Assembly: GCF_026802175.1 (NCBI RefSeq)
Contig: NZ_CP113797.1
Location: forward strand, 2,271,026 to 2,335,025
Direction: 5' to 3'
Source: Thermocoleostomius sinensis A174
GTDB lineage: Bacteria > Cyanobacteriota > Cyanobacteriia > Elainellales > Elainellaceae
Length of the DNA stretch: 64,000 bases
The position numbers and the translations under genes are program-made. A model generated the notes under the pieces. That model was not told where the DNA came from, did no database searches, and saw only the letters and a program-made list of their open reading frames with translations. This document shows, one piece after another, positions 622 through 57,262 of the stretch. The first letter of the stretch is position 1. Each line of letters starts with the position of its first letter.

Positions 622-3600
622 ATGACAAATCCTGTGGAAAAATATCCTCCTTCCAGTTCTGAATCTACCCTACGTCAATGGCTGCATCAAGCGGTTGGCT
701 TGGATGGCTTGCGGTTCAAACTTCAAGTACGTGGCAACAATCTGCATCTTTTGTGTGAAGCCGACCCCAGTCCCGATCGATCGACTGTTCTTCATCGATT
801 GCTGCCTGCACTTCAGCAAACCGATCTAAATTCGTTGCTTCCTGACAATGCCGCATCAATCTATCAAGTACAGGTGTATGGTGGGCAGGCGGGGAATCTT
901 CACCCGGACTGGGCCTTTACGATTTACTTGAATCAGTTAGATGAGCACATCACCCAGCTTCAGCAAGAGCAGCCTGCTATGGCGTCCTCTGTTCCGGCAA
1001 CGGCTCACTCTTCTGGCCCTGTAATACCTCCTGAAATCACGGGGCTGGCGGTGTCGAATCGCAGCTTGGCTAAACAAGGCAATGAAATGGCGATCGCATC
1101 CTACCTAAGCGAGACGCTGAGTGATTTGGGCATTGCGGTGCGAGTCAGTGTCAAGAGCATTGCTTGTCCAATTAATTCCAACGTCTATTCCACAGATATT
1201 ATCCGTACCGTCTCCACGTCTAAGCGGCTGTGGATTGCTTGCCAGGCTTCCTACAAGCCCGACCCGTCGCTAGTGTGCGACTCTGTGACTCAAAAACTGC
1301 GCGACCTTGAAATCGAAGGCTATCGTGATGCTGTCATTCTGTTTCAGGTGGCAGGTGAAACTCAACCCGATTGGCTTTTGCGCGTAGACCTGACGCCACC
1401 GAATGAAATGTTGCGCGACTGGGGACGTTGGGGGGATGTAGAAGCGATACAACGGCTGATTAACCAAGCGATCGCCCCCTTTGGCGCTTACGTTTCCACC
1501 GCATCGTTAAAGGAATCCAGTCTTCACCTGGTTTGTGCCGTTATTCCCCGTACTCCTGCCGACATCAATCCGGTTCCCGATCGCCAATCCATTCAGCAAC
1601 AAGTCTTGCCCTTACTAGACTTGCTAGCCCCCCAAGGCATTCATACCGCTACCCTCTATGGACAAGTTCCTTACCAAGCTGCTCCGGCTTGGGTTGATTG
1701 GATTGAACTGCCGGCCGCCTCACATCCCGCGTTGGCTGATTCTCCGTTAACGCTAGCTCTTCAGGAAGATTGGAGTGCTGTTGCGTTTTTACTGCACCGC
1801 TTGCTAAATCCAGATCTAGATCAGTACCTCCTGACTGGAGGCATTCGGCTGCAACTGCTGCCCAAGCAGGATCTGCTGCACATCATGAGCGAATCAGTAA
1901 GGTGCCCAGAGCAACGCTATGTCAGCCAAACGATCGTGCGGTTCTTGAAGCAATTGAAGCTGCCAGATTTGGCAGGGGTGCGCATCTACGGACGCCGCGC
2001 TGGGCAAAAGCAGCCGATGTGGAGTTATGGGGCTGATTTTGTTGCAAGAGAGAGAATTATACCGGAGCCTGCTCCCGAATTTGCCGCTAGTGACGCCTAT
2101 GTCAATGATCTAATTGCTCAGCCGACTGACGCCGTTGTTCGGCCGGAGTTAACACCCGAGATAGTACAGTCTGTCTGGAAATCGGCACGCGAACGTGCTT
2201 TGCACTGGCTTCAGCAGGCATTGATGCGAACACAACTCTTGGTTCCTATTAACGATCGCCCGAATTCTCCTGCTCTACCTGGCTCAAGTGCCCAAGGCTA
2301 TGGAGTGGCGATCGTATGGGGATTGGTAGGAGCGCTGGTCGTTGTGCAAGCAAACTGGCTGCTGGAAAGTCTTCTCCGCCAAAAACCTGCCACGGTTGCC
2401 ACTCAGCCTACCCAGATGGCTGATGCAGCAACGTCTACCGCTGTGGTGTCTTCTACAACGCCTGTGGAAACTGAAGAACTGTCTGAATTCCCCTTCGCCG
2501 ATGTCAAACTGCCGCGATCGAGTCCAACAGATAGAACCGCGTTTGATGCCGACAAATTTACCGAATCAACAGGCTCTTCCCAGGCAGCCGCTGAGCAGAC
2601 AGAAGCGCAGAAGACACCCCCGCCAACCAACTTGCCTTATACCCCTCAAAACCTGGCTGTCAATTTAGCGCTAGCTCAAAGTTTGGAGGCTGAATCGTTT
2701 GCGCCAGACTTCAACAGCCGCCAATTTAATGACAAGCTGCAACTTTACTACCGAGTGCTGGAAGAGTTGGGTCCGCCCAATGTGTTAATTGTTGGTAGTT
2801 CGCGGGCACTGCGTGGCGTTGATCCAACCGCGTTAGAACAGGCGTTGGCAGACCTAGGACATCGCGATGTGCAAGTCTTCAACTTTGGCATCAATGGGGC
2901 AACCGCTCAGGTGATTGATTTGCTATTGCGGCAGTTATTAACGCCAGAGCAATTGCCCGATCTGATCGTGTGGGCTGATGGGGCACGTGCGTTTAACAGC
3001 AACGCTATAGATGTGACCTATAACGGAATGACGGCATCGCTTTCCTACCAAGAGTTGGCCCAAGGACGACTGCAATTGCCTCAAGTTGGGATCGCCTCGT
3101 CTGGTGCTGAATCTGTGGCACCATCGGCAACGGGTATTAATGTGACGCTGACAGACAGTTACCAAGCCCTCGATCGCTGGCTCAGTCAACAGGTGGCTCA
3201 GGTGGTGCGCCCTCATCAAGAACGCGATCGGCTCAAACAATTGATTCAGTACCAGATGGCCCGGGTGCTTCCCGCCACAGAACCTGCCTCTATCCCAAGC
3301 GAATTGCTGGCTTCTGATGGCAATTTGGCCTTGTCTAAAACCACCACTGCTTTTCCTTCCCAGTATGAATTTGTCGATGCGGCTGGGTTTCTCTCGTTGG
3401 GGGTGCAGTTTAATCCAGCCACCTACTACCAAAAATATGCTCGGGTTTCAGGAGACTACGATCGGGATTATCTAGATTTTCAAATTACTGGCGTCCAAGA
3501 ACAAGCACTACAAGCTTTGCTGCAATATACCCAACAACAGCAAGTGCCAGTGGTATTCGTTAACTTGCCGATGACCGATGAATATCTAGATGCCACTCGC

Positions 3601-54274: not shown

Positions 54275-57262
54275 TCAATCTAACAGTTCTACAATGCCGC
54301 GTTGTCCATCTAAGCGAATGCGTTGCCCATCTTGAAACCGTTGAGTAGCTTGTTCGACATCCATCACAGCAGGAATTTTGTACTCTCGGGCCACGATCGC
54401 TCCGTGTGACAATTGCCCACCCACTTCAGCCACCAGCCCTCCAGCTTGGGCCAACAGGGGTGCCCAGCCCGAGTCAGTATAGGGCACCACGAGGATGGTT
54501 GTCTTAGTAATCTCAGAGCTTTGTTGTAGCGATCGTAGGACTTTCACTTGTCCTTCGATTTGTCCTGGGCTTGCACCAATTCCTTGCAGTTGCTTGCCGC
54601 TCGAAACACGGTCATGCGCGTTGGGCTGAGAAGGTGGGGTGTTGCCATACACCAACATCGCAGGAGATCGTTGTCGATCGGACTCTAGTTGTGCTCGACG
54701 TTGACGAATCAAATCGGGAATTTGCCGCCTCAACTCTGAACGAGTTCCTGTGACTAAGTGTTCAATTTCATCAAAGGTTAGGAAAAATAGATCGCCTGTC
54801 TCTGCAAGTAATCCAGTCGATCGCCAATGCTCTTCCAAGGACACCACACTCCAGCGCAATTCAGCCAACAATCGACTATAAACCGCCGTAACCCGTCCTT
54901 TTAGATCTAACCGACGTTGTACCTGCCGGGTTTTCCAGGATGGAGCGTTGGAGGCGTCTGTCCCAGAAGGATGGAGCGATTTAGGTGGATTGAACACAAA
55001 CTGGGTGAATAGGTCTCGAGCAGGTTGGGGATTTTCCTTCCAAGTGGGTACGGCAATATCGGTCGCCACTTCACTCAAGTAGCCATACTGCTCTAGAAAC
55101 TGATTGAACTGTCGCACAATTGCTTGTCCGCTTGGATGAGCAGACAGGGTCGAGAATACAACATCGCTAGTTTGCGGCGTCACCTGCTGCAATGACGGTA
55201 ATACTATTCGCGCCTGGGCTGCCAACTGCTGTAGCGCTTGTAGAGAAGCAACTTCAGGCATCAAGTTGTAAGTTAGCTGTGATTCGGGCACGTTGAACAC
55301 GGCTTGCCGCAAGGCCGCACTTAAGGGAGCCAAGATACTGTAATAGGTTGCTTGCTTCAACAGTTTCAAAATCCGGTAAATGCGTCGCAGTAATGCGTCT
55401 GCGGTAAGTTGATCGATCGACTGTCGGGTCAACTCATCTAAAGACGGCTCGAATCCGTGCGCCAGATCTTGCTCAAATTCTTTTTCTAATTTAAGTTCCT
55501 GTTGCAAAAGCCGCAGCAGTCCAGGGAGGTTACGCAAGGTAGAACGGAGAGGGGGTTTTGTAAATTTAGCTCCACGGGTGAGAAACTCTAAACTTTCAGG
55601 TGGCAGTCCCATGCGTCGAAAGATTTGCCCCAACAGTGACGCATTAAAGTAGGCGGCGGAATGATGTAAGGTAGCTGTGTCATTAAAGTTTAGATCAGAG
55701 GCGCGATCGCCTAGGACAAGGCTGAATATCTCTCCCCACACGCCGCAGGTCAGCGGGCGATTGATTGACCATGTCAGGGGATGAATATAACCTGGAATGA
55801 CTTCAGCGGCAATTTTACGAGTCCAAATCGGCAGTAGTGTTGTAATGGGTCGCGCTTGCAGTATCCACACTTGTTGGCCATCGTAAGTCCATTCAATATC
55901 CTGTGGAACACCGTGAAATCGGGCTTCCAACTGACGAACAAGAAAAGCGACTTGCTGAATTAACCAATGGGGTGTTTGCCCTTCTCCCTCAACTCGACAG
56001 GTTATGCTCTCTGGCAGCGAATCAGGGTTCCAGCTAGCAAAGGTTTGAGGATTGCAACCCTGCTGATTAGCTGGTTGCCCTTGGCGAATTACAGAAAGAA
56101 TCGATTCTGTTCCTTCTAACCACACTCGATAATATTGTGGAGTAAATTGTCCAGACACAACCCGCACTGCCATACCGGGTAGGGCTTCAATTACGATCGC
56201 CTCTGTGTCTCGCATCACGGGATCTCGACTGAAGGCGACACCCGAAACCACTCCTTGTATTTGTCTCTGCACCAGCACAGCCATTTCGGTATCTGCTAAC
56301 CCTCGATCATGCCGATAGCGTGCAGCAGAGGGCAAATTGTAGGAGGCTTGGCAATGAAAAATGGCCTGCTCTAACGCGGCCGAACTAGTGATGTTGAGAA
56401 TAGACTGATACTGCCCGGCCGCCGAAGCGGTTTCTGAATCTTCACCAATAGCAGAGGAACGCACAATTAAGGGACGTTCTGGCAACGGTTGTGCCACTTC
56501 AACAAGAGTGGACGGATCATCCCCCGCTCGCAGCACCCAGCCATCTGGCACCGCATAACCCCAGCGTTTAAGTTGAGATAAGGTTGCAGCTTTTTGCCCG
56601 ACTTGGCTAACTTGCAGCGGTTGATTAAGAGTGAGGAGCGATCGATCGCCTTGGAAAAAGCGAAAGAGCTTACGAGAGCTAGTTTGCACGTTGGAATCTG
56701 ATAATTCTAAATCGTCTGGAATTGTTTGATAAATCCACGCAATTAATCCACACAGGACAATCGTCGCAACAATGAGTGGTCCATTTTGAGGATGGCGCAA
56801 TACTGTCATCAACGAGAGCAGCAGTAATACGCCTAATTTACCCGATCGACGTTCTCGTAAGATCGTAAAGCTAATGCCGCCCACAAGGAAAACCAAAGCA
56901 GCGGTCACCCAATCGTGGACTAGGTATCCCCAGACTACATTCGTTGTTCCCGCACCACGTCCAAGCCAATAGCGTCCTAACACTAGCGCGATCAGCGCAA
57001 TAATTTCCCACTGTGGCTGTGTAGGGAAAAACTGTCGAGCGAGTAGAACGGCTGCAATCCCTTTCAGGGCTTCTGATAAAACGGCTAAGACACCAACTAG
57101 AGTACCGCCGTGATAAAAGGCGGCCGAAACGCTAATATTCCCCGTTCCCAATTGCGCCAAATTGCGTCTAGTTAGACCATAAGTAATCCACTGAATTAGT
57201 GGCAACCCACCCAGCAGTGGACAAATGATAAAAATCAACAGGGCTCCCCAAACTTGTGTCAT
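54275..57262 (-). CDS. Fusion: divergent PlsY-like membrane domain + PEP-dikinase/rifampin-phosphotransferase-like enzyme
   Basis: Residues 1-180 form about five membrane helices laid out like the acyl-phosphate glycerol-3-phosphate acyltransferase PlsY, but the key motifs are altered: GTGNISVSAAF (39-49) where SGNIGATN is usual, and LGRYWLGRGAGTTN (95-108) where GH...KGGKG is usual. Residues about 205-510 are a PPDK-type ATP-grasp domain (VGQKAATLSQLKRWGYAVP, RSSAIGEDSETASAAGQYQS, DIEWTYDGQQVWILQARP). A long helical middle follows, and a swivelling phosphohistidine domain ends the protein, with His953 in GGQLSHGAIVARE. The plan resembles rifampin phosphotransferase and PEP synthase. It may phosphorylate a membrane-linked substrate, which is inference. 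Similar fusions occur in other cyanobacteria. Confidence 0.85.
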   Translation of the reverse strand: MTQVWGALLIFIICPLLGGLPLIQWITYGLTRRNLAQLGTGNISVSAAFYHGGTLVGVLAVLSEALKGIAAVLLARQFFPTQPQWEIIALIALVLGRYWLGRGAGTTNVVWGYLVHDWVTAALVFLVGGISFTILRERRSGKLGVLLLLSLMTVLRHPQNGPLIVATIVLCGLIAWIYQTIPDDLELSDSNVQTSSRKLFRFFQGDRSLLTLNQPLQVSQVGQKAATLSQLKRWGYAVPDGWVLRAGDDPSTLVEVAQPLPERPLIVRSSAIGEDSETASAAGQYQSILNITSSAALEQAIFHCQASYNLPSAARYRHDRGLADTEMAVLVQRQIQGVVSGVAFSRDPVMRDTEAIVIEALPGMAVRVVSGQFTPQYYRVWLEGTESILSVIRQGQPANQQGCNPQTFASWNPDSLPESITCRVEGEGQTPHWLIQQVAFLVRQLEARFHGVPQDIEWTYDGQQVWILQARPITTLLPIWTRKIAAEVIPGYIHPLTWSINRPLTCGVWGEIFSLVLGDRASDLNFNDTATLHHSAAYFNASLLGQIFRRMGLPPESLEFLTRGAKFTKPPLRSTLRNLPGLLRLLQQELKLEKEFEQDLAHGFEPSLDELTRQSIDQLTADALLRRIYRILKLLKQATYYSILAPLSAALRQAVFNVPESQLTYNLMPEVASLQALQQLAAQARIVLPSLQQVTPQTSDVVFSTLSAHPSGQAIVRQFNQFLEQYGYLSEVATDIAVPTWKENPQPARDLFTQFVFNPPKSLHPSGTDASNAPSWKTRQVQRRLDLKGRVTAVYSRLLAELRWSVVSLEEHWRSTGLLAETGDLFFLTFDEIEHLVTGTRSELRRQIPDLIRQRRAQLESDRQRSPAMLVYGNTPPSQPNAHDRVSSGKQLQGIGASPGQIEGQVKVLRSLQQSSEITKTTILVVPYTDSGWAPLLAQAGGLVAEVGGQLSHGAIVAREYKIPAVMDVEQATQRFQDGQRIRLDGQRGIVELLD

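Follow-up and report, generated by a model that had tools for sequence, protein, structure and literature searches.

One gene of the cyanobacterium Thermocoleostomius sinensis A174 joins, in a single reading frame, a membrane domain resembling the glycerol-3-phosphate (G3P) acyltransferase PlsY to an enzyme resembling dikinases. PlsY is a committed-step enzyme of phospholipid synthesis.

One gene, two known folds

The window analyzed is the whole 64,000-nucleotide stretch containing the gene. The frame of 995 codons on its minus strand (54275–57262) begins with ATG and contains no internal stop, so the single frame described in the first-pass annotation, which gave no strand, is open throughout. 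Its neighbors in the window are psbA and unrelated frames. The features referred to below are as follows.

54275..57262, (-): whole fusion gene, 995 aa, including the stop codon; kept as a single frame in relatives
56720..57262, (-): PlsY-like membrane domain, residues 1–181 (PF02660, 60 bits; AF2 model compared with 5xj5-8)
57104..57148, (-): rebuilt PlsY motif 1, residues 39–53 (GTGNISVSAAFYHGG), replacing SGN..T...R of PlsY
56927..56977, (-): rebuilt PlsY motif 2, residues 96–112 (GRYWLGRGAGTTNVVWG), with invariant residues
56633..56719, (-): linker, residues 182–210, with invariant D183 D184 L185
55829..56632, (-): ATP-grasp domain, residues 211–478 (PF01326; K224, R268, S287, D455, E457, Q469, R471)
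54593..55828, (-): middle acceptor (RIF-binding-like) domain, residues 479–890, from the Foldseek alignment to 5hv1
54899..54913, (-): R784-x-x-x-K788, likely counterpart of Arg666/Lys670 of rifampin phosphotransferase (RPH), matched by spacing
54278..54592, (-): swivelling phosphohistidine domain, residues 891–995 (PF00391; PDB profile match)
54404..54406, (-): His953, predicted phosphate carrier (GGQLSHGAIVARE), present in 57/57 sequences, counterpart of RPH His825

More than 100 further cyanobacterial loci carry the fusion as a single frame, and it is therefore neither a chance product nor a joining error; the possibility that sequencing had joined two genes, raised in the first-pass annotation itself, is thereby ruled out. 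Among the relatives, stop-free open frames of 940–1050 aa are the rule. In one genome (G243; L182, 953–3945) the two halves lie in different frames at the linker, reflecting either a recent mutation or a sequencing error.

The N-terminal part matches the Pfam family G3P_acyltransf (PlsY, PF02660) at residues 13–177 with 60.2 bits, against a curated cut-off of 24.1. An AF2 model of residues 1–197 built with 33 relatives (pLDDT 91.7) resembles the Aquifex PlsY structures by Foldseek (E 3e-5, TM 0.74) and by VIA (Z 18.9, rmsd 2.8, 180 aligned residues; the next unrelated entry has Z 5.7), and these structures are its only strong matches in the PDB. The PlsY-like fold initially proposed is thus upheld, and a fold outside the PlsY family did not emerge when looked for. 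The earlier count of about five helices was too low, the model having nine.

Residues 211–995 read as an RPH-type dikinase, comprising an ATP-grasp domain, a helical acceptor domain and a swivelling domain with His953, and apparently lacking the PEP/pyruvate barrel. Pfam places PPDK_N at residues 262–476 and PEP-utilizers at 919–989; a C-terminal barrel was not found by Pfam, and the protein stops after the His domain. By Foldseek, the full model (pLDDT 84, pTM 0.65) matches RPH-Lm best (5hv1; E 2.7e-31, 936 columns), in an alignment that spans the whole model, and RPH-Lm also ranks first among the PDB profile matches. The global TM is low (0.38) because the relative placing of domains is unreliable at pTM 0.65 and because such domains move. 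The ATP residues map to K22, R117, T136 and E297 of RPH-Lm: K224 and R268 are invariant and position 287 is Ser or Thr, corresponding to Lys22, Arg117 and Thr136, with K224 paired to Lys22 by motif. D455, E457, Q469 and R471 likewise have counterparts among the functional residues of RPH. The dikinase machinery is intact, as first claimed, and the His953 motif is present. The RIF-binding fold to which the middle domain is related accommodates a large lipophilic acceptor (PMC4844700). The most conserved segment of the whole protein lies in this domain (residues 479–565, mean conservation 0.88), a pattern that suggests one specific acceptor across cyanobacteria.

Family models place the dikinase part apart from the enzymes that have names. 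Scores stay below the NCBIfam cut-offs for the RPH equivalog NF041857 (241 bits against 999), for PEP synthase TIGR01418 (171 against 739.75), and for PigC and RedH (244 against 1300 and 223 against 1350). At position 785, the place of RPH Glu667 if R784 and K788 are paired by spacing, the 57 sequences have Leu (36), Val (15), Phe (5) or Ile (1). Accordingly, the label of a PEP-dikinase/RPH-like enzyme holds insofar as the protein is closer to RPH than to PEP synthase, and fails insofar as the Glu essential in RPH is absent. The host genome encodes a separate true PpsA (1212 bits) and, given that gene and the absent barrel, the fusion was rejected as the PEP synthase of the cell.

A rebuilt pocket in the PlsY-like domain

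In Aquifex PlsY, which uses acyl-phosphate as substrate, the G3P site consists of S35, R45, K104 and N180 together with S142 and H177, the acyl-phosphate site consists of the K104–A107 loop, H92 and T41, and R45, H177 and N180 are each required (PMC5700162). The corresponding pocket residues were assigned by aligning the fused domain with 32 ordinary cyanobacterial PlsYs. In this alignment the G3P site is replaced (S35 by T40, R45 by Y50, N180 by I181, S142 by R139 and H177 by Y178), with Y50 present in 57/57 sequences. In the acyl-phosphate site His92 has become R97 (57/57), and Thr41 has become S46, the hydroxyl being retained in 56/57. Lys104 of the glycine-rich loop corresponds by motif to a Lys or Arg at position 102 in 52/57, while one alignment pairs it with G105. 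The motifs quoted in the first-pass annotation, GTGNISVSAAF and LGRYWLGRGAGTT, are both present, and its claim that the catalytic spots had changed is borne out by the replacement of S35, R45, H177, N180 and S142 alike.

The replacements are themselves conserved. G39, T40, N42, F49, Y50, H51, G52 and G53 of motif 1 and G96, R97, G105, T107, N108, W111 and G112 of motif 2 are invariant in 57 sequences. Invariant columns of the PlsY-like part account for 15/36 positions inside the two pocket motifs versus 12/154 outside (p 3e-6). Since the new residues are invariant and clustered in the pocket motifs, the pocket appears to have been rebuilt and then held constant; judged from the alignment, a dead domain retained for anchoring would show the reverse pattern.

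Pocket and kinase residues are lost together

The pocket residues are usually kept: 119 of the 139 sequences retain at least 16 of 17, and all 119 of these retain the kinase residues. Divergent members (f10) keep 76–88% of the 17 pocket residues with the rest of their membrane domain only 31–38% identical to the consensus; at equal background divergence, then, the pocket and kinase sets are both largely kept in f10. In four lineages (f13, f14, the f23 g70 paralogue and locus L121) pocket and kinase residues are lost together.

The f13 members, found in three genomes (L123, L209, L210), are open frames of 900–914 aa in which His953 is replaced by Gln and motif 1 is deleted or degraded, and they are apparent pseudoenzymes. 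The f14 members, found in two genomes (L204, 4499–5671; L205, 4314–5519), are remnants of 390–401 aa that consist of the membrane scaffold and a degenerate ATP-grasp without catalytic residues, the acceptor and His domains being absent. The f23 g70 paralogue (591–593 aa) is found in three genomes (L206, 5922–7703; L207, 6329–8104; L208, 6404–8182). Here the PlsY-like part and the ATP-grasp are joined directly to the His domain, the acceptor domain is gone and motif 1 is eroded; in L206 the His is replaced by Asn. The exception is L103 (5932–8460), a kinase part on its own, 47% identical, with no PlsY domain upstream; its kinase residues are kept, with R784 replaced by Phe.

Because the sequences are related, this evidence was counted as four lineages, and a Spearman correlation was not used as evidence. 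Joint loss supports a coupling of pocket and kinase short of proof, a general relaxation of constraint being the alternative. The suggestion in the first-pass annotation that the PlsY part is reused as more than an anchor gains from both the invariant new pocket and the joint loss.

Distribution and gene neighborhood

Matches to the fusion occur in 34/36 genomes of the order, including 27/27 good ones; within the class, about 85 of the genomes sampled have one, and members of the phylum outside the class give only weak matches. It is absent from all f19 genomes listed. About 70 named records match, nearly all of them cyanobacterial. Two metagenome-assembled genomes recorded as Tatlockia and Gracilibacteria (L064 and L092) carry a typical cyanobacterial fusion gene and are probably mis-binned contigs. 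Among 236 matching plasmid records, none reaches 80% query coverage. At locus L078, a gene for a different sort of dikinase-like protein (885 aa, 689–3346) is located on the opposite strand, about 2.6 kb upstream of the fusion.

No universal neighbor or conserved operon was found across the fusion loci compared. Downstream of the fusion, a DAGK_cat/YegS lipid-kinase gene follows after 61–91 bp in four loci of the Chroococcidiopsis type and after 0.4–1.7 kb in five Nostocales loci, and a CNNM/CBS gene is present in nine. Upstream, 15 loci have a divergently oriented GDSL lipase/acylhydrolase gene. In a Calditrichia genome, a distant dikinase (29%) with no PlsY part sits inside a gene run (L108, 4022–11890) consisting of a YegS lipid kinase, a 319-aa frame that matches no Pfam family, the dikinase-like enzyme, a 379-aa frame, phosphatidylserine decarboxylase and DUF3419. 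These pointers to lipids are weak, though consistent with one another, and the lipid-kinase neighbors may reflect no more than shared lineage.

Proposed function and alternative readings

We tentatively favor, at a little under an even chance, a membrane-bound RPH-type dikinase that phosphorylates a hydrophobic membrane acceptor, with the PlsY-like pocket handling the acceptor lipid or the product. The basis is what sequences and models offer: domains, folds, catalytic residues, pocket conservation and joint loss. ATP bound in the ATP-grasp domain would phosphorylate His953, and the swivelling domain would then bring this phosphate into the middle domain for transfer to the acceptor, with AMP and Pi released. 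The acceptor or its phosphorylated product would be a hydrophobic membrane molecule, held by a PlsY-like pocket that has lost its G3P site and gained new invariant residues. The conjectural steps are the phosphorylation itself, the lipid nature of the acceptor and the binding of acceptor or product in the pocket; the only pointers to a lipid come from the gene neighborhood, the PlsY-like pocket and the acceptor domain of the RPH type.

The PlsY-like part could instead be a membrane anchor only, with the kinase acting on a soluble small molecule. RPH and the hydroxyphenylethanone kinase HpeHI, the characterized RPH-type enzymes considered here, are soluble proteins with drugs or phenols as substrates, and in L103 the kinase is intact and the PlsY domain missing; however, the most conserved residues of the PlsY-like part are those of the pocket motifs, which fade jointly with the kinase residues, and this reading seems rather unlikely. 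The dikinase might also make an acyl-phosphate from a fatty acid, which the PlsY-like domain would use to acylate an acceptor other than G3P. PlsY, the relative of the fused domain, uses acyl-phosphate (PMC5700162). The hydroxyl that contacts the carbonyl of the acyl-phosphate persists (T41 to S46, 56/57), as does the form of the glycine-rich loop, mostly with K/R102, and the G3P residues are gone; with the G3P site erased and S46 and the glycine loop retained, an acyl-phosphate role is possible. Against it, the phosphate-hole His92 is Arg97 and no candidate acceptor site was identified. The known RPH-type dikinases target the oxygen of a hydroxyl or enol group, and we know of none that makes acyl-phosphates. 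We regard acyl transfer as unlikely, and quite unlikely the larger claim that one protein, by making its own acyl-phosphate and acylating a non-G3P acceptor, represents a new branch of cyanobacterial membrane-lipid metabolism.

PigC and RedH both join lipophilic substrates, and their models score the fusion about as well as that of RPH does, which would suit a ligase that uses His-phosphate chemistry to prepare a lipophilic substrate for condensation and leaves no stable phosphorylated product. Yet all three scores fall far below their cut-offs and no neighboring biosynthetic cluster was found, making such a ligase very improbable. Least credible, to the point of being nearly dismissed, is a second working PlsY with an accessory kinase. 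The fold and the Pfam match would allow it, but the residues needed in aaPlsY (R45, H177, N180; PMC5700162) are Y50, Y178 and I181, and a strong ordinary PlsY is present in 144 of the 146 genomes of the class. The host itself has one (172 bits), and on the same two grounds, the replaced G3P residues and the ordinary enzyme across the class, the fusion was rejected as the PlsY of the cell.

The two genomes with no strong ordinary PlsY are G080 and G352. G080, a single contig, keeps the fusion, which speaks for a second PlsY, and lacks the ordinary gene with about 3.7 kb around it, a region present in its sister G261. The flanks of the missing region are found at IS-like repeats separated by 1 Mb (C1:2515760 and C1:1490362-1496000; L165, L171, L172), and the absence may be a real loss or an assembly fault. 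With the gap at such repeats and its flanks so far apart, G080 is no proof that the fusion has replaced PlsY.

Comparison with known systems

Both halves are known folds of a known mechanistic type. No paper describing the fusion, the rebuilt pocket or its cyanobacterial spread was found in the literature searched, outside of which most subscription papers fell. If the favored reading of a lipid-directed membrane dikinase is correct, such an enzyme is common to many photosynthetic bacteria and would be, to our knowledge, the first member of the swivelling-His class to be linked with an integral membrane domain. It would also be a case of PlsY rebuilt for another job, and would suggest that cyanobacterial membranes contain an undescribed phosphorylated lipid or use an undescribed step of lipid salvage. 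Naming such proteins "PlsY" or "PEP synthase" from domain matches would be wrong, judging by the residues tested.

The N-terminal part shares with PlsY (YgiH; 5xj5-5xj9) the membrane fold over 180 residues, the positions of the pocket motifs, N37 and a T41-type hydroxyl. It differs in the replaced G3P clamp (S35, R45, N180), H177 and S142, in the change of H92 to Arg, and in the joined dikinase. The dikinase part shares with RPH-Lm (5hv1, 5fbs) the ATP-grasp with its ATP residues, the acceptor domain and the C-terminal swivelling His, and R784/K788 resemble Arg666/Lys670, whereas Leu, Val or Phe stands at the essential Glu667, a membrane domain is added at the N terminus and the score falls far short of the cut-off for the RPH family. 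HpeHI is likewise a swivelling kinase of the RPH type, acting on a small molecule. Unlike the fusion, it has two subunits with a separate ATP-grasp, a phenolic substrate and no membrane domain. The H581Q mutant of HpeH is inactive (PMC12167813), and this His-to-Gln change is the one seen naturally in f13. The ATP-grasp and phosphohistidine domains are common to the fusion and PpsA, with the barrel absent from the fusion. The prodigiosin ligases PigC and RedH belong, by model score, to the same superfamily with the same domain order, but the fusion scores less than one fifth of their cut-offs, and the PlsY-like part is absent from them.
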